In this document: positions 1 to 11,268 of the stretch, in pieces
Layout of the letters: every line of letters begins with the position of its first letter
Position numbering within the stretch: position 1 is the first letter of the stretch
DNA from: Sphaerochaeta sp. Phil3
Lineage (GTDB): Bacteria > Spirochaetota > Spirochaetia > Sphaerochaetales > Sphaerochaetaceae
Assembly (NCBI GenBank): GCA_001940825.1
Contig: MSGT01000061.1
Span: 87,742-151,741 of the forward strand
Length of the DNA stretch: 64,000 nt
Reading direction: 5' to 3'
Position numbers and translations under genes: made by a program
Notes under the pieces: generated by a model
Seen by the model: only the letters and a program-made list of their open reading frames with translations
Databases searched by the model: none
What the model was told of the DNA's origin: nothing

Positions 1-23
1 CGGTTCCGGGCGTGTCGCTTCAG
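1..23 (+). repeat. 3' end of DGR variable repeat (VR)
   Basis: Bases 1-23 are identical to 661-683, and the two copies diverge immediately afterwards (AAATGG against TAGGGC). In DGRs the GC-rich 3' end of the variable repeat is where mutagenic homing initiates, and it is kept nearly identical in TR and VR. The rest of VR lies upstream of the window. Confidence 0.85.
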
Positions 24-34
24 AAATGGAATAA
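1..34 (+). CDS. DGR variable (target) protein, C-terminal end only
   Basis: Only the last ten codons lie in the window: G-S-G-R-V-A-S-E-M-E and a TAA stop at 32-34. The first seven residues equal those encoded by the template repeat at 661-683 in the same frame. This marks the end of a variable protein whose C-terminus is rewritten by the downstream retroelement. DGR target proteins usually end in a C-type-lectin-like fold. The template encodes a Trp/Asn/Gly-rich stretch that fits this, but the fold cannot be verified because the body of the gene is outside the window. Confidence 0.8.
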   Translation, partial: GSGRVASEME

Positions 35-106
35 TGGGAACATGGAAATAAAGCGCTAAGGCACTAATCCTCCAATCTTGCAATAGGGGGGGTGATTTGA
101 TAGGAT

Positions 107-122
107 GTCGCCGTAAGGCGAC
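107..122 (+). other. GC-rich hairpin between VR and avd
   Basis: GTCGCC and GGCGAC form a perfect 6-bp stem around a GTAA tetraloop. It follows a G7 tract at 86-92 and lies about 84 bp after the end of VR. Some DGRs carry a GC-rich hairpin or cruciform just downstream of VR that aids target recognition. This one is further away than in the Bordetella phage prototype, so a role in homing is only a suggestion. It could also affect avd translation. Confidence 0.5.
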
Positions 123-141
123 TCGCCCGTGGAGGATAAAA

Positions 142-552
142 ATGAAGGATCCGGAATCACCTACGCTGAATGCATGGAGAGAGGCTTGGCTGTATCTCTG
201 TGATCTGATGCGCGGAAACAAACTTCCGAACTACCTGAAATACTCTGTCGGCGAAGACATCCTACGGGATATGATGAGGGTCGGGCAGCATATAAACAAG
301 GCTCATATGCTGATCAATTCAAAGCCGTATGAATCCAGGAAACATGTTTATCAGGCTTCCGACATCTATGATGATGTGAAGTTTGCAGTCAACCAGCTGG
401 TGGATGCCAAACATCCGGCAACTGATGCGGATAATCCCGGGAGTCCTGTGTTGCCTGACAGAACAAGGGAATACCTGTCCAAGCTTATGGACAATTTCGG
501 TAGATGGTTGGGAGGCTGGCTCAAGAACATCCAGTCTGCGGGGAGCGGATGA
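142..552 (+). CDS. avd: Accessory variability determinant (Avd-type four-helix protein)
   Basis: This 136-residue protein lies between VR and the template repeat, the usual position of avd. Avd forms a positively charged helical barrel (pentamer in the phage prototype) that binds the reverse transcriptase and template RNA and is needed for mutagenic homing. The sequence is predicted almost entirely helical, with conserved-looking W, Y and L positions (AWREAWLYLCDLM; EYLSKLMDNFGRWLGGWL). I chose ATG 142 because GGAGG lies 7 bases upstream; the in-frame TTG at 97 would add a tail across the hairpin. The stop is only about 8 bases before the template repeat. Confidence 0.8.
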   Translation: MKDPESPTLNAWREAWLYLCDLMRGNKLPNYLKYSVGEDILRDMMRVGQHINKAHMLINSKPYESRKHVYQASDIYDDVKFAVNQLVDAKHPATDADNPGSPVLPDRTREYLSKLMDNFGRWLGGWLKNIQSAGSG

Positions 553-560
553 AAAGCTTA

Positions 561-683
561 GTGTTTGCGCGTGGGCGGGCTCCAATTGGAATAATGGATC
601 TAATGGCGGGTTCTCCTATCTCAATGCAAATGACAACAACTTTGGAAATACGAATAACAACGGTTCCGGGCGTGTCGCTTCAG
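561..683 (+). repeat. DGR template repeat (TR)
   Basis: The segment is non-coding in context. In the VR frame it reads as a string dense in AAY (Asn) codons: SNWNNGSN, then LNANDNNFGNTNNNGSGRVAS. Adenines placed at the first two codon positions are the signature of a DGR template, since only A positions are mutagenised when the RNA is copied. The 3' end (661-683) matches the VR remnant at 1-23. The 5' limit is approximate because VR is not in the window for alignment. Confidence 0.85.
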
Positions 684-726
684 TAGGGCGGGAAAAGGTA
701 AGAATCTCAGAGATTCCCTTCTGAAG
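678..726 (+). ncRNA. Predicted folded region at the 3' side of the template RNA
   Basis: GAATCT (702-707) and AGATTC (711-716) form a perfect hairpin with a CAG loop. CTTCAG at the very end of TR (678-683) can pair with CTGAAG (721-726), enclosing it. DGR reverse transcription is primed from structured RNA flanking TR, so a fold closing on the last bases of TR is plausible for priming or RT recognition. Pairing was judged by eye only. Confidence 0.4.
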
Positions 727-755
727 GATCCGACCTCGCAAAGAGAAGACATAGT

Positions 756-795
756 GTCCTCATCGACCATTCGGCGGGTGAGGACGCGCTTTTTT
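756..795 (+). terminator. Hairpin with T6 tract between TR and RT
   Basis: GTCCTCA (756-762) pairs with TGAGGAC (779-785), followed by GCGC and six T. It resembles an intrinsic terminator placed after the template repeat and directly before the RT start. It could define the 3' end of a discrete template RNA, with partial read-through supplying RT mRNA. The 16-base loop is long for a classical terminator. Confidence 0.5.
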
Positions 796-800
796 ATGGT

Positions 801-2009
801 ATGAGTGATCTCCTTGACAGGATAACTGACTACTACAATTTCGTTGAAGCTGACCACGAGGTCTCACATGGGAAACGGGAACACCGGGATTATATATGCT
901 TTGAGCGGGAACGGGAGAGGTTCTTCAACTCAAGACCGAAACAGATCCGGGAGAAGACGTACAAGCACGGGCCTCTGCGGGAAAAGGTCATTTATGAACC
1001 AAAGCGGAGAGATCTGTTGATTCCGAATCTTTCGGACAGGGTGACTCATCATGCACTTATACGGATAATCAAACCATATCTTGAATCCTATTTCCATCAG
1101 GACAGCTTCTCTTGCCGCAAGGGATCAGAATATGTGAAAGTGTTTCTGAGTGAGGATGAAACCAATGGTCCTTATCTGATATATTCACGGAAGAAAGACA
1201 GCCGTAACCGGTATCCGTGCAATCTTACGATTGCCCAGACAATCAAATATGTGAGGGAAGATGCGGAGCTGCAGTTCCCGGGTCAGGTGTGTAAAGTTGT
1301 ATTCATGGCCGGAAGAGGCCAGTTGGCGGCCTGTCGGGATTACCAATCGAAAATCAGATCAGCAATAGGCAAGTGGGGCTGGAACTTCTGGATACTTGCC
1401 ATTGACTTCAAGTCTTTCTACGCCTCAATAGACCATGAGGTACTGATGTTCCTGTTCGGCCGGCTAATCAAGGAAGAGGATGTCCTGTGGCTCATCAGAC
1501 AGATTGTTGATGCCTGTCAGGAAGGGTTGCCAATAGGGTTCCTTCCCAGCCAGGACGGAGGAAATCTCGTCGGATCCACTGTTGACTACCTCGTTACTGA
1601 CATTCTCGGAGCTAGACCATATGTTCGATATGCAGATGATATCAGAATCCTATGTGGTTCAAGGGAGACTGCCAAGCGTTATCTGGAGGCAATTGACAAT
1701 TTTGTAGGTACTCGTCTGAAGATGAGGCTTTCACCGAATAAGACCAGAATCTATAAATGGTCAGGCAAAGACACCTTCTGTGGTTATGTAATATGTCCTC
1801 ATCATTTCGAGCCCAAGAAATCCACAGTTGACAGGGCTCATAGAAGGTTCAACAAGAAACTCAGGGACTTTGAAGCCGGATTGATTACTGCACAGCAACT
1901 TTATGACACTGCAAACTCTCATCTGGCCTATAGAGAGCATACTTCGCAGCCTTATGATGAGCTTGCGGCAAAGTGTATCAAGATTTCGCAATCTATTTCG
2001 CAAAAATGA
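801..2009 (+). CDS. DGR reverse transcriptase
   Basis: This 402-residue retroelement RT copies the template RNA with errors at adenines; the cDNA replaces VR. Palm motifs are visible: IDFKSFYASID (catalytic Asp near 202), IGFLPSQ at 245-251, the [ILV]GxxxSQ form typical of DGR RTs, and YADD at 277-280. The finger region has IPNLSDRVTHHAL. Between CRKG (105-108) and GRGQLAACRDYQ (171-182), which are nearly adjacent in ordinary DGR RTs, there are about 60 extra residues (YLIYSRKKDSRNRYP and beyond). No clear ribosome-binding site precedes ATG 801. The RT follows TR by about 115 bases, as expected for an avd-TR-RT cassette. Confidence 0.93.
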   Translation: MSDLLDRITDYYNFVEADHEVSHGKREHRDYICFERERERFFNSRPKQIREKTYKHGPLREKVIYEPKRRDLLIPNLSDRVTHHALIRIIKPYLESYFHQDSFSCRKGSEYVKVFLSEDETNGPYLIYSRKKDSRNRYPCNLTIAQTIKYVREDAELQFPGQVCKVVFMAGRGQLAACRDYQSKIRSAIGKWGWNFWILAIDFKSFYASIDHEVLMFLFGRLIKEEDVLWLIRQIVDACQEGLPIGFLPSQDGGNLVGSTVDYLVTDILGARPYVRYADDIRILCGSRETAKRYLEAIDNFVGTRLKMRLSPNKTRIYKWSGKDTFCGYVICPHHFEPKKSTVDRAHRRFNKKLRDFEAGLITAQQLYDTANSHLAYREHTSQPYDELAAKCIKISQSISQK

Positions 2010-2013
2010 CGAA

Positions 2014-2145
2014 ATGAAGATGATTGCCCCTGAATTGTTTCGTGGATACAGTTTCATGGAAACCACATTTGAAGTGTTGAAAACGGGATTAAACAGAATT
2101 ATAACAGTTTTAAAAGGTGATACAATGTCTGAAGAAGAGACATGA
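2014..2145 (+). CDS. Possible small ORF downstream of DGR RT
   Basis: A 43-residue ORF (MKMIAPELFRGYSFMETTF, ending MSEEET) begins four bases after the RT stop. There is no good ribosome-binding site, but translational coupling to RT is possible. I recognise no family. It could equally be non-coding sequence trailing the retroelement. Confidence 0.25.
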   Translation: MKMIAPELFRGYSFMETTFEVLKTGLNRIITVLKGDTMSEEET

Positions 2146-2251
2146 AATCCGGCTCTAAATCATGTATATTTCGCAATTTCTTGCAGTCTAAGCTGGATTT
2201 CTTCTTTCAGCTTCTATTGGATTTTACAGATACAGTCGCCCAATAATAGGT

Positions 2252-3271
2252 TCACTCGTTATATCTAATATTAGTAATCCTTCCTTGTTCATCTTGCTCG
2301 GTGATAATCACCCCGATGAGCTCTAGGATGTTTTCGGTGAAAATCTGTACTTGAATTGTCCTAAAAATCATGTCACGCTCAAACTTATCAAAATCTGTTG
2401 CGCCGGATTTTTTATAGATAGGATTAAGAATAGTTGGGTCTTTTTTTACGGCTTGAACAAAGTTTATGTTTTCGTGCTGATACTGAACAAGTGCTATTAT
2501 TTCATCGGGTTTAAGAAGGAAGACTTTCCCGGAATCTCTGGCTTCTGTCACCGATAAAGGAAACAATATCATCTCTTTGATTCCATTTGAACGATTTAAT
2601 AGCTTTCTGAAATACAGGAAGGCGTCAATTTCTGCATCATAGATCAAATGACATGACCGTTCGTTTTCATCAAGATCCTTTATCTGCTCATACAGGCCTT
2701 TATCTTCAATACTAACAGGTTCAAGATCAGTATGGCCTAAAGTCTTCCAAAGAAATTTAACCTGTGAGAACAAGTTTTCATTTATCTCACGAAGCTTCTC
2801 ATATGAAATAACAATCGGCTCACCTTCAGTATTATGACTTTCTGAATCATTAGTTGTATCAGCGTTATCATGTTTTTCTTTCACTGTAGCGGACTCTTGA
2901 ATAAAGGTACTGCCTGTTACTCTTTCGTGAATTGTTTCTCTTTCGCTTTCTTTTTCAACAACTGACGTAGACTTATTATTGATAGATGCCTCTGATGGAC
3001 TTATAGAATCAACAATACTGTCCAGTTCTTTTGTCTCAGAAGACGCGAGTCCTTTAACGCGTTTAACAACAATCTTTTTAATCTCAGGACGTAATCCTCC
3101 TTTCAAAGCCATTCTCGCAAGGTTTTTTGCTTGAGAAGCAGAGTCTGTTTGCATTTCCCAGAATGAAGAATAGCATTTTTTGCAGAGACAAAGCCCATCT
3201 TTGAGAGCTTCATGAGCCTGAGGAGAGAATAAGCCTATCTTCCTTGAGCAAAAATCACAACTCTTTGGCAT
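2252..3271 (-). CDS. Zinc-ribbon (DUF4428-like) protein of unknown function
   Basis: The 339-residue protein starts with a small Cys4 zinc-binding module: CDFC near residue 5 and CKKC near 31, with the KIGLFS spacer seen in DUF4428-type ribbons. Residues about 90-160 are low-complexity and rich in Ser, Glu and Lys, probably a linker. The C-terminal half has no motif I recognise. A good site (AAGGAG) precedes the start. It lies downstream of and parallel to the SWIM-finger gene, 32 bases away, so the two are probably co-transcribed. The pair is more AT-rich than the metabolic part of the window, which suggests acquisition by transfer. Confidence 0.65.
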   Translation of the reverse strand: MPKSCDFCSRKIGLFSPQAHEALKDGLCLCKKCYSSFWEMQTDSASQAKNLARMALKGGLRPEIKKIVVKRVKGLASSETKELDSIVDSISPSEASINNKSTSVVEKESERETIHERVTGSTFIQESATVKEKHDNADTTNDSESHNTEGEPIVISYEKLREINENLFSQVKFLWKTLGHTDLEPVSIEDKGLYEQIKDLDENERSCHLIYDAEIDAFLYFRKLLNRSNGIKEMILFPLSVTEARDSGKVFLLKPDEIIALVQYQHENINFVQAVKKDPTILNPIYKKSGATDFDKFERDMIFRTIQVQIFTENILELIGVIITEQDEQGRITNIRYNE

Positions 3272-3303
3272 ATTAATGTTTAGCTCCTTCTATAATCATA
3301 TCG

Positions 3304-5136
3304 TTATCGACCTTCTAACAACTTATGATAATGACTCTGAAAGAGATTGCCAAAGCCCTTTGTTGTCGGAAAACTGAAAATGTATGCTGGCTGGTCTTCT
3401 CCATAAATGTATACTTCAAGATCAAATTTAGTTTCATCAAGAAGATGTTTGTATATATTGTCTGCAGGGATCTGAGTAACTCTATAATGCCCCGAATCTT
3501 GAACATCCAGATAAATATCCTCTAATCTTCCGTTTTCACCATGTATCCTGCATTTCAAATACTCGCTATAATCAAAATCAATACCTGGTGCTGCATCAAA
3601 GATTATATTCCGAAAACCAAGGAACAGCTCAATGCTTCCAGTACTTCCAGTTCTCAAATCCGTCCATCTGACCATTGGTCTAAGCACAATGAAAGGCATC
3701 TTCCAAGGTTCGCATGTTTCAGTTGAAAACCCTGAAGAATAGCCATATCTAGCTTTGATGTCGAGCAATTCGAGAAACGAACTTGTAGACCTGTCTATTG
3801 GAAGTCGAGACAAGCCATTAAAATATCCCAGTTCTGTCGCAAGTCTGAACATGTGTTTACAGGGAGTAAAAGTACTCATCAGGCTGTCTCGCTCTTGGAA
3901 ATCTTTACACGTGCACGATCTGAGTGTTGTTATATAGTATTCCCCGGTATGACCAATAAAAGTTGCTTCTTTTGCTTTTCGGTTGATGGTGAACGGTCTG
4001 ACTTCAGCACTCCGCATGAAGCGCCTGTTTGCCTCGGAGTCAAAACCCTTTGCAGTAAGCCATAAATCTTTTTCCTCTTCGTAAACATTCTTGTAATTGC
4101 CGAGAATTACTTCGTCTATGGCACAATTGAGTATCAAGCATCTTTTTATGTAATCAATTTGCTCTTGATGAAGATAGCATCGGAAATCGCCAAGTTTAAT
4201 GTATACATTTCCTGAATTAAGTATTGAGTGCAACTTGTGTAGTTGATAAAATTCAATCTCGTCAGCATTGGAAGCGAGACAGAACTGGAATACGCTGTAA
4301 TACTCTTGCACGCGATAATGTGCGAGTTCGTTGATTTTCTGAAATTGATTTTGAGGATTATTGTAGCTTAATAAACCGGAACAAATTGAGAATGATTCAG
4401 CTCCAATAGGACAACAATCTAATGGAGTTCTAACAGTAACACTAATTACCCATCCTAGAAATCTATATACTTCAAAAGATGATCCAACAAGAACCTGCGT
4501 GCCATACTCTTGCTTGTATCTAGGACGGAAACCGTCAGGTTTATCTGCCTTAATCGTAAATTTCCTGTATCCAAGATTCTGTGTGGCTTCAAGAAACACC
4601 TCACGAGTTGGAACTCCTCGAAATAGCTCAGTTCCGTATTGCATTTCGATTGGAAATGTACATCTTGATAGAAAGAAGTATTTGCTACCTTCAGATGAGG
4701 GCATTGATTCATCAGCAGTTATTGCCGTTTGCGTGAATACAGGGATATGCAGTTCACCTTTCGATGCTTTAATTATTTCAGTGCTGGTATTCCCCTTAAT
4801 GCTCTTGTTTGTCATGACCATGTCGCCGTATTTTTGTCTATATGCGTCAAGAACCAATTTGAATTTCTGGATTGCATCTTCCTTAGATTCACAGTCATAC
4901 AATGCTTCCAGGGAAAGTCTCTCTTTTCCTCCTTGAATGTATTTCCCATCCTCATAATTGACACCTTTTACCCAAGAATGGCTAAAGAGTCTTCCGATAC
5001 CATATTTAACCGGGTTATCCGAGTAATGATAATCAATGAAATACCGTCCGTCATCGATAGCGATGACACAGACATAGTTGCTTGTGAAATGTCCTGACTC
5101 GTTTTTTCTCAAAGAGTCTACTCCGCTTGTTTCCAT
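3304..5136 (-). CDS. SWIM zinc-finger protein, possibly with a degenerate GIY-YIG-like N-terminus
   Basis: This 610-residue protein has a SWIM finger in its middle: CTCKDF, then TPCKHMFRLA (CxC...CxH). SWIM modules bind DNA or proteins and occur in helicases, MULE transposases and repair factors. The N-terminal 90 residues (YVCVIAIDDGRYFIDYHYSD, then a helix ending RQKYGDMV) resemble the outline of a GIY-YIG nuclease, but the GIY-YIG residues are poorly kept, so this is tentative. No helicase motif is present. There is no ribosome-binding site; a TGTTATCAT box lies 7 bases before the ATG, so the transcript may be leaderless. It probably forms an operon with the DUF4428-like gene. Confidence 0.6.
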   Translation of the reverse strand: METSGVDSLRKNESGHFTSNYVCVIAIDDGRYFIDYHYSDNPVKYGIGRLFSHSWVKGVNYEDGKYIQGGKERLSLEALYDCESKEDAIQKFKLVLDAYRQKYGDMVMTNKSIKGNTSTEIIKASKGELHIPVFTQTAITADESMPSSEGSKYFFLSRCTFPIEMQYGTELFRGVPTREVFLEATQNLGYRKFTIKADKPDGFRPRYKQEYGTQVLVGSSFEVYRFLGWVISVTVRTPLDCCPIGAESFSICSGLLSYNNPQNQFQKINELAHYRVQEYYSVFQFCLASNADEIEFYQLHKLHSILNSGNVYIKLGDFRCYLHQEQIDYIKRCLILNCAIDEVILGNYKNVYEEEKDLWLTAKGFDSEANRRFMRSAEVRPFTINRKAKEATFIGHTGEYYITTLRSCTCKDFQERDSLMSTFTPCKHMFRLATELGYFNGLSRLPIDRSTSSFLELLDIKARYGYSSGFSTETCEPWKMPFIVLRPMVRWTDLRTGSTGSIELFLGFRNIIFDAAPGIDFDYSEYLKCRIHGENGRLEDIYLDVQDSGHYRVTQIPADNIYKHLLDETKFDLEVYIYGEDQPAYIFSFPTTKGFGNLFQSHYHKLLEGR

Positions 5137-5143
5137 CAATTGA

Positions 5144-7424: not shown

Positions 7425-7910
7425 TTGAGATTATTTCAGTTTTTCCTCCTTATTTGACTACCGAGGAGACGGTAGTTCTGATGTCTCGCAACTAGTGTGA
7501 ATAAAACAAATTGCTCTTCACTTTTTTTCTTGGGGATTGCCCCTTCTTGACGGAGGCGCTCGAAATGCAATCCATGAGGACGAAGCGAATGAATCCGTAA
7601 GTGGTCCGTAAGCCCGTGAGGTCCCGTGCGTCCCATAGAACGGATGCCATAACCGCCACAGACTCTACAAATGCGCCACGGATTCAACCTCTCCCACCAT
7701 GCTCACCATCACCACGAAGCACTGACATTTCAGCGTCTGCGGCCTGCCAATGGAAGTCGATTCCTTTTGAATCTTTTCATTGAGAGATCCAGGTACGAAC
7801 CATTGCATGAGTGGAGGTTGCCGGATCTGTTCTCCGTGGCCTAAAGGGCCCTTGAATGCTGTTGAAACAATAGAGGGTTCTTGCGGCTCTTAAGGTGGTT
7901 GAGACTCTGT
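7425..7910. repeat. Non-coding stretch with degenerate short-period repeats
   Basis: There is no intact gene. From about 7590 to 7730 the sequence is built of loosely repeated 8-10-base units (CCGTAAGCCCGTGAGGTCCC; ACCGCCACAGACTCTACA). Parts nearly match 28380-28470, for example CCGCCACAGACTCTACA and GCGCCACGGATTCAACC, and the style matches 17160-17250. The repeat ends near the truncation point of the following pseudogene. Confidence 0.55.
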
Positions 7911-8756
7911 GGCGACCAAATCCATCTGCAGCCGCTCTCATTCAAGGAATTCATGTCTGTCTTCGATGGTCGTGAAACGGACGGCTGGCAGCAGTACATG
8001 ACTTTCGGAGGTCTTCCGAAGCTTCTTGAGATGCAGACTGACCGGGAAAAGGCGGATTACCTCAAGGGTGTCTTCGAGGAGACATACATACGAGACATTG
8101 TTGATCGGAACGCTGTGCGCAACAGGGCGGAGATGGAGGAGCTTTTGGACGTGGTTGCCTCGTCAATCGGAGGGCTGACAAACCCGAAGAAGCTTTCAGA
8201 CACATTCAAATCCGTCAAGGGTGTGACGATCCACCCTGATACCGTCAAATCATATCTTGACTATCTGGAGGACTCGTTTCTGATAAGCAAGGCCAGAAGA
8301 TATGATGTGAAGGGAAAGCGCTACATCAATACCCCCATGAAGTACTACTTCTCAGATTGTGGTCTGCGGAATGCAAGACTCGGTTTCAGGCAAATCGAAG
8401 AGACATATCTCATGAAGAATATAATTTACAATGAACTCTACAGGCGTGGATACTCTGTCGATGTGGGATGCGTGGAGGATGTCTTCACATGTGAAAACGG
8501 CAAGCGCACCCAGAAGCAGCTTGAGATAGATTTCATATGCAACATGGGGTCGAAGAGGATGTACATCCAGTCCGCACTTGCTCTCCCAACGTTGGAGAAT
8601 GTCAGGCAGGAGCAGAGATCACTTCTGAAGGTCAATGACTCATTCTGCAAGATGATTATCGTCAAGGACGGCATATCACACTATAATGATGACTGTGTTT
8701 TGATTCTGGGGTTGTTTGATTTCCTGCTGGGCAGGACGGGAGAAGCGATAATCTGA
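7911..8756 (+). pseudogene. 5'-truncated AAA/DUF4143 ATP-binding protein
   Basis: The frame reads GDQIHLQPLSFKEFMSVF onward and aligns closely with residues from GDEIHVMPLSFSEF to the end of the intact paralogue at 9980-11257. The first ~145 residues, which hold Walker A, Walker B and sensor motifs, are absent and replaced by unrelated repeat sequence. What remains is the C-terminal DUF4143 part (FGGLPKLLEMQ; YDVKGKRYINTP; KQLEIDFICN). Without its P-loop it cannot bind ATP. The rest of the frame is undamaged, so the loss looks recent. A start codon exists at 7881 but its sequence is not homologous. Confidence 0.85.
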
Positions 8757-9979: not shown

Positions 9980-11257
9980 TTACCAGTTAAGGCTGTCTTG
10001 ATTGAGGAGAAAGTCTTCAAGAGAGAGGAAAAGATATCCTTTGTCGTTGTGGTGTCGGACTATGCTTCTTTCGGTTATGATTATTTTCTTGAAGGAATCA
10101 GAGATGTTGTCCAGGGATTTCGTTTCTTGCAGAAGTTTATCCTCACTGTATATGTCATATGCGGATTGTATATAGAAACGTTGGCTCCCTTCGTTTGCAA
10201 CGAAATCAACCTCAAGTTGCTTCCTTTGGTTCTTCTCCCTTGTTTCAACCACTCCAACATCTACCTTATATCCTCTGTATCTCAATTCGTTGTATATAGT
10301 GTTTTCCATGAGATGTGTAAACTCTACCTGCCAAAAGCCGAGTTTGGCGTTTCGCAATCCCGTGTCCTCAAAATATACCTTGTACGGTGTGGATATGTAT
10401 GATTTGCCCTTTACGTCATAGCGGAGAGCTTTGTCGATTATGAATGCATCCTGTAGATACTTCATGTAATTGGAGATTGTGTCTGTTGACAGGTGGGTTT
10501 TCTTTTCTGACATGAAGCGTTTTTCGAGTTTTGCAGGATTTGTCAGAGTTGAAATCCCAGATGCAATGAAGTTCATCAATTCATTCAGCTCCTCTGTGTT
10601 CCTAATGTTGTTGCGTTCGATGACATCTTTGATAAATGTTTTCTCCAACTGAGAGGAAAGGTAATTCATCTTTTGTTTGTCGGACTGGGCAAGAACCGTT
10701 CGTGGAAGACCTCCGTATGTCATATACTCGAAAAGTCTTTTCGAAACATCACCTTTCAAATAACCGTAGAATTCAGAGAAGGAGAGTGGCATTACATGGA
10801 TTTCATCTCCTCTTCCTCTGAATTCCGTGATTACATCGGATGAAAGGAATTTCGAATTGCTTCCCGTGACGTAGATATCAAGGTTTCCCTTGGATAGATA
10901 TCCGTTCAGAACATATTCGAAAGCTTCAAGCCGTTGAACCTCATCGAGCAGGAGATAATATCTTTCCTTTGGGGATATCAATGTCTCCAAGTATGAGATG
11001 AATTTTTTGTAGCTTACTTTTCTTTTGTCCTTTTCGAGTTCAATTAGATCTTCGCCTATTTTTGCAAGGTCGGTTGCTGAATCAAATGCGAATTTGATTA
11101 TTCTATCTTCCTTGACACCTGATGATATGAGGTGTTCATGGAATATCGAATTCAGGAGGAAGGATTTTCCAGAACGGCGTATGCCAGTAATGATTTTCAC
11201 TGAGTCGTTCCACATTCGTGATTTCAATTCTTCAAGATAAAGATCTCTGTTGATCAT
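9980..11257 (-). CDS. AAA-family ATP-binding protein with DUF4143 C-terminus
   Basis: This is an intact 425-residue member of the large AAA_14/DUF4143 family, whose function is unknown and which is often abundant in host-associated anaerobes. Walker A is GIRRSGKS near residue 27, Walker B is YYLLLDEVQ, and VTGSNSKFL follows as a sensor segment. The DUF4143 part contains EYMTYGGLPR, YDVKGKSYISTP and KQLEVDFVA, the last resembling a restriction-endonuclease-like core. ATG 11257 is preferred over the upstream TTG because GAGG sits 8 bases before it. A duplicated 42-bp element lies just upstream. The truncated copy at 7911 is its paralogue, roughly half identical by eye. Confidence 0.88.
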   Translation of the reverse strand: MINRDLYLEELKSRMWNDSVKIITGIRRSGKSFLLNSIFHEHLISSGVKEDRIIKFAFDSATDLAKIGEDLIELEKDKRKVSYKKFISYLETLISPKERYYLLLDEVQRLEAFEYVLNGYLSKGNLDIYVTGSNSKFLSSDVITEFRGRGDEIHVMPLSFSEFYGYLKGDVSKRLFEYMTYGGLPRTVLAQSDKQKMNYLSSQLEKTFIKDVIERNNIRNTEELNELMNFIASGISTLTNPAKLEKRFMSEKKTHLSTDTISNYMKYLQDAFIIDKALRYDVKGKSYISTPYKVYFEDTGLRNAKLGFWQVEFTHLMENTIYNELRYRGYKVDVGVVETREKNQRKQLEVDFVANEGSQRFYIQSAYDIYSEDKLLQETKSLDNISDSFKKIIITERSIVRHHNDKGYLFLSLEDFLLNQDSLNW

Positions 11258-11268
11258 ATGCAATTCCT

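Follow-up and report, generated by a model that had tools for sequence, protein, structure and literature searches.

A Mu-like siphophage prophage of a spirochaete with a diversity-generating retroelement in its right end and a predicted tail-module target

Organisation of the locus

The stretch analysed in the present study (the window) comprises 64,000 nucleotides, positions 87742-151741 of contig MSGT01000061.1 (C61), in a draft genome of 2.36 Mb from a gut-type spirochaete, Sphaerochaeta sp. Phil3, of the same family as Candidatus Aphodenecus pullistercoris (G049). A diversity-generating retroelement (DGR) occupies positions 1-2009, and the canonical order claimed in the initial annotation, namely the 3' end of a variable repeat (VR), avd, a template repeat (TR) and a reverse transcriptase (RT), was recovered in full on the plus strand. 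The locus was compared with a sister phage with a complete VR (IMG/VR contig IMGVR_UViG_2061766007_000309, 35,881 bp; RT 94% identical), the same single phage being returned by each of the scans of viral contigs with the RT, the target, the RT alignment and a VR/TR DNA pattern.

First, the target gene starts at window position -1235 (C61:86506) and ends at position 34 (C61:87775), with its stop codon at 32-34; the 3' end in the window (1-34) reads ...GSGRVASEME-stop, and the sister gene ends identically. The IMH-type constant 3' end of the VR (1-23) is identical to TR positions 661-683, and this shared IMH/IMH* type end of 23 bp lies 11 bp from the end of the target stop codon. The 23-base match had been noted from the outset; it is exact and confined to these two sites, as a 21-mer taken from it has two occurrences in the window with up to 3 mismatches allowed (0 copies expected from 100 shuffles) and no further ones across the genome with up to 2. 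Second, the VR is followed by a non-coding stretch (24-107), a GC-rich hairpin with a 6-bp stem and a GTAA loop 83 bp past the VR (107-122), and an avd-like accessory gene of 136 codons between VR and TR (142-552). Third, comparison of VR and TR defined a TR of 117 nt (567-683), so that the repeat end first proposed, 683, was kept and the start was moved from 561 to 567. The template had been described as AAY-rich, and 12 of its 38 codons in the target frame are indeed AAY; moreover, no codon becomes a stop under any A-to-N change, an outcome obtained in 0.5% of random permutations of the TR bases. A terminator-like element, an 11-bp stem followed by six T, lies between TR and RT (754-795) and is kept in the sister phage except for a loop change. 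Finally, the RT gene (801-2009, 402 aa) encodes the expected IGxxxSQ motif as IGFLPSQ, together with YADD, and comparison with other RTs delimits an in-frame insertion of 63 residues (aa 109-171; window 1125-1313). Searches of the window found no tRNA, and no Rfam family reached its gathering score.

Carrier prophage and target protein

The DGR is the rightmost module of an element of 37,520 bp (C61:52450-89969), the ends of which were set by comparison with the sister contig and by inspection of the end sequences. The left end, at C61:52450, is TGTACAATCCAA; the right end (window 2160-2228, plus strand) terminates in ...TTTTACA, and the ends are of the TG...CA type with TGTA termini. A 5-bp duplication of the target site, GATAC, borders the element on both sides (C61:52445-52449, directly before the left end, and window 2229-2233). 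The element encodes homologues of MuA (phrog_310, E 3e-60; tblastn to phage Mu A, E 9e-7) and MuB (phrog_296, E 2e-37), as well as a terminase, an SPP1-type portal and a Mu F-like head protein. The carrier is a Mu-like transposable siphophage prophage. Both of its ends (C61:52450-52520 and window 2010-2228) also contain spaced repeats of the AATCCAGC/TTTTTGCAA type, which, by analogy with the ends of Mu, look like transposase-binding sites.

Several other features of the prophage and its surroundings were observed. Genes at C61:60750-64117 (L028:751-4118) match the two components of PD-Lambda-5, a candidate defence system (A, E 9e-45; B, E 3e-115), and are followed by a gene for a DUF3800 protein. 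At the same site the sister phage carries a 402-aa protein that is TcmP-like by eye, with no Pfam match, and a radical-SAM protein, and comparison of the two phages indicates a swapped cargo site adjoining the repressor. Directly past the prophage, host genes lie on the minus strand (window 2252-5139), one of them with a sub-threshold DUF4428 match and another encoding 611 residues with a SWIM-like CxCxxF motif and no Pfam match. Further on are two neighbouring genes of the DUF4143 ATPase type (7881-8756 and 9980-11263); the AAA part is missing from the first of these, which resembles a truncated copy.

The target gene closes the tail gene cluster of the prophage. Upstream of it lie DUF1833, NlpC/P60 and lambda gpJ-like tail genes, followed by four small ORFs, with the gpJ-like tail fibre gene 2 kb from the target gene. 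The target protein matched no Pfam family; its matches are phrog_2889, proteins of DGR-bearing phages such as Vibrio phage VP58.5 gp18, and the crystallised DGR variable protein TaqVP (PDB 5vf4; E 2.5e-21 over residues 49-398). TaqVP has a C-type-lectin fold of the formylglycine-generating-enzyme subtype (PMC6328139). The AlphaFold model of the target is of low confidence (pLDDT 29), so the predicted C-type-lectin-type fold is assigned from homology to the crystal structure 5vf4 alone. Taken together, the matches to 5vf4, phrog_2889 and phage proteins and the tail-gene neighbours indicate that the target is a tail-module protein, not a lipoprotein, and it is probably receptor-binding. The initial annotation had left open whether the target was a surface lipoprotein or something else, a question that these results, from within a Mu-like prophage, answer with the latter. 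A cellular DGR that diversifies a spirochaete surface lipoprotein, with phage genes merely adjacent, would suit a host of this family, and lipoprotein DGRs do exist in spirochaetes, e.g. TvpA of Treponema denticola. However, the DGR lies inside an element that is bounded by target-site duplications and syntenic with a viral contig, and its target is a homologue of phage-type DGR targets, so that we regard a cellular origin as highly improbable.

Adenine-specific variation and sequence constraint

In this genome, the mutable core of the VR is covered by an assembly gap of 60 N (L003:9683-9742), and window position 1 is the first base after this run. The flanks of the run, GCGCGTGGGCGGGCTCC on the left and CGGTTCCGGGCGTGTCGCTTCAG on the right, are the two constant ends of the TR, which in the TR itself are separated by 77 nt. 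A gap of 60 would put the gene out of frame with respect to the conserved ending in the sister phage, and the N run is therefore best interpreted as the length that a scaffolder estimated for a VR core left unassembled. Variation among the sampled cells would explain the failure of assembly, and so would the repeat itself.

Because the VR core is a gap here, the adenine specificity of this DGR rests on the sister phage. The initial annotation had predicted that the 3' end of an upstream gene would align with the TR with differences mainly at template adenines; here that 3' end bears both constant VR ends around the gap, and in the sister phage 11 of the 12 substitutions between the VR and its own TR fall at template adenines (A>G 6, A>T 3, A>C 2; binomial P about 2e-6, with 29 A in 117 positions). 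The remaining differences are one T>G and one in-frame deletion of 6 nt. In both phages the constant ends of the VR equal the TR exactly despite target genes that are only 74% identical, a pattern expected of retrohoming. Among the VR/TR pairs of seven DGRs at a greater distance (six in the same bacterial family, one in a Bacteroidales genome), 92 of 93 mismatches are at adenines; less weight is given to these pairs because the search that found them favours adenine mismatches.

Conservation between the two phages also varies from part to part. The target gene before the VR is 74% identical, the RT gene 85% and the tail from RT to the right end 67%, against 96% for the 84 nt after the VR (81/84), 97% for the last 122 nt of avd, 100% for the 14 nt before the TR and 97% for the TR-RT spacer. 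Synonymous changes in avd affect 34 of 88 codons in its first part and only 2 of 39 in its last (Fisher P 8e-5). Positions 431-800 are about 97% identical outside the TR, compared with 85% for coding DNA; this identity and the suppressed synonymous change mark a probable DGR RNA core, comprising the avd 3' end, the TR and the TR-RT spacer and including a stretch inside avd. Likewise, the 96% identity after the VR marks positions 24-107 as a candidate target-side cis site for retrohoming. Predicted RNA folding was no better than that of shuffled sequences (z -0.95 for the spacer; z -0.10 for 431-800), and therefore the conservation is claimed for sequence and not for structure. Post-VR hairpins described to date have a GC-rich stem of 7-10 bp and a GRNA loop and lie 4-34 bp past the VR (PMC3240598). 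The sole hairpin found 3' of the VR here is that at 107-122, which falls outside these published limits in its 6-bp stem and its distance of 83 bp, with a loop of GTAA, and is only a candidate; such hairpins are common in phage DGRs and are not defining for all of them. The avd product itself is weakly similar to known Avd proteins, both in NCBIfam DivGenRetAVD (E 5e-4; 20 bits vs a cutoff of 80) and in an hhalign comparison with BPP-1 Avd (21 columns, the similarity being that of the LGxWL C-terminus), and the size and position of the gene fit the accessory gene of a DGR.

One might ask whether this DGR is a fossil in which the anatomy is intact, homing has ceased and the VR is frozen. The unassembled VR core in this genome would be compatible with such a state, as would the non-A change and the 6-nt deletion in the sister VR; however, the RT (dN/dS about 0.02-0.04 between the sister phages), avd and the non-coding TR flanks are all clearly constrained, and the constant VR parts still equal the TR even though the target gene has diverged elsewhere. 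A frozen element is, in our judgement, improbable.

Assignment of the RT to the DGR class is supported by several comparisons. The protein matches Pfam RVT_1 (E 3.8e-12), the PHROG reverse transcriptase family (E 4e-74) and the phage RT structure 8ub7 (E 2e-28), which is among its best solved relatives and which we take to be the BPP-1 bRT; it appears to belong to the DGR clade, carrying [LIV]GxxxSQ in place of QGxxxSP. The weak NCBIfam and PADLOC matches to group II, retron and DRT models might suggest an RT from a group II intron, a retron or a defence system beside a coincidental repeat, yet all of the NCBIfam matches are below the curated cut-offs, the PHROG and 8ub7 matches are stronger, and the IGxxxSQ motif, avd, the TR/VR pair and the A-specific substitution in the sister phage and relatives speak against it. 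The probability of such an origin is close to negligible.

The 63-residue insertion (aa 109-171) splits a CRKG/GRGQ motif that is uninterrupted, as CRKGRGQ, in the closest other RT (G049, 46% identical). Both sister phages carry it, and the values between them (dN 0.056 against dS 1.50) indicate a real, constrained part of the RT. A search of 297 genomes of the class gave no relative of the insertion, none was recognisable among phage records (best E 0.3), and it is absent from the other DGR RTs examined. An intein was considered and rejected, since inteins need more than 63 residues. The AlphaFold model of the RT is of low confidence (pLDDT 52) and gives the order beta-beta-beta-alpha-beta for the insertion. 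Our guess is that it may be a surface module, specific to this lineage, that contacts RNA or Avd. A further proposal, that the insertion is a small folded module that alters the binding of RNA, Avd or incoming nucleotides by the RT and, with the avd-encoded RNA arm, defines a structural sub-type of the DGR ribonucleoprotein, is doubtful; if true, the RT of this DGR would have an additional element for regulation or fidelity built into it. The insertion and the sequence-conserved RNA segment around the TR, including the constrained arm at the avd 3' end, are modest novelties, two small points of note for specialists.

Proposed mechanism and comparison with known systems

Herein, we propose, with a probability of roughly 94%, that a 37.5-kb Mu-like siphophage in a spirochaete chromosome carries, at its right end, a DGR that re-randomises the VR of a tail-module target. 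The anatomy, the A-specific VR/TR pair of the sister, the homology of target and RT, the selection on RT and flanks and the prophage ends were seen in the present study; the steps of the mechanism are modelled on BPP-1 and Hankyphage (PMC3240598, PMC6199706, PMC12135933). First, the TR would be transcribed within an RNA that comprises the avd 3' end, the TR and the spacer; RT and Avd would bind this RNA, and its reverse transcription would be error-prone at adenines. The resulting cDNA would then take the place of the VR in the 3' end of the target gene, guided by the identical 23-bp 3' end, so that roughly a dozen positions on the C-type-lectin-type face used for binding may be re-randomised. 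The altered face could in turn change the host surface to which virions attach and hence the specificity of adsorption.

Among the papers searched, none joins DGR, Mu-like and spirochaete terms. An assembly gap exactly on the variable repeat of a DGR is a pattern worth screening for in draft genomes, and comparison with a sister phage marks, by conservation alone, a probable functional RNA (431-800) and a cis region (24-107).

Several known systems resemble this element. BPP-1 (mtd-avd-TR-brt) has the identical gene order, a homologous RT and a target that is also a tail protein with a 3' VR; however, its annotation places an attachment site within a His-tRNA gene and it is not Mu-like, its Avd is only weakly similar, its RT is without the insertion and its post-VR hairpin differs. 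The BPP-1 system has been reconstituted in a laboratory strain of E. coli (PMC12875486). The prophage DGR of Thermus aquaticus, encoding TaqVP, shares the gene order and has a target whose homology spans 350 residues and takes in the start of the VR, but it is divergent in sequence and comes from a prophage of a thermophile. Within the same bacterial family, the DGR of G049 has a target 52% and an RT 46% identical and a VR/TR pair that is A-specific at 11 of 11 positions; its RT has no 63-aa insertion, and its phage context is different. This homologous DGR (L030) and the small tail gene upstream of it lie in a phage that appears to be of another type, and a search for MuA in the G049 genome gave no match. 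A homologous DGR in an apparently non-Mu phage suggests that the target-avd-TR-RT block is transferred as one module between phages of different kinds. In G014, another genome of this family, a 43%-identical Mu-type transposase is encoded 31 kb from the DGR on one contig, with a tail-gene order that is similar by eye from the ORF translations and with an RT that is again without the insertion; such elements appear to be carried by two genera of one bacterial family.

In its life style, the element is closest to the Bacteroides Hankyphage, and it is a known kind of system that is now seen in Spirochaetia. Both are temperate, with a Mu-like transposase, 5-bp target duplications, siphophage tail genes, an avd-like ORF, an RT, a 117-bp TR/VR and a C-type-lectin-type target (PMC6199706, PMC12135933). 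They differ in host phylum (Spirochaetota here, Bacteroidota for Hankyphage), in the target, which has 400-odd residues here and is the C-terminus of a roughly 2225-residue ORF in Hankyphage, and in the 63-aa RT insertion, which Hankyphage does not have. The combination of replicative transposition and targeted mutagenesis of a tail protein, known from Hankyphage, is hereby extended to phages of spirochaetes.
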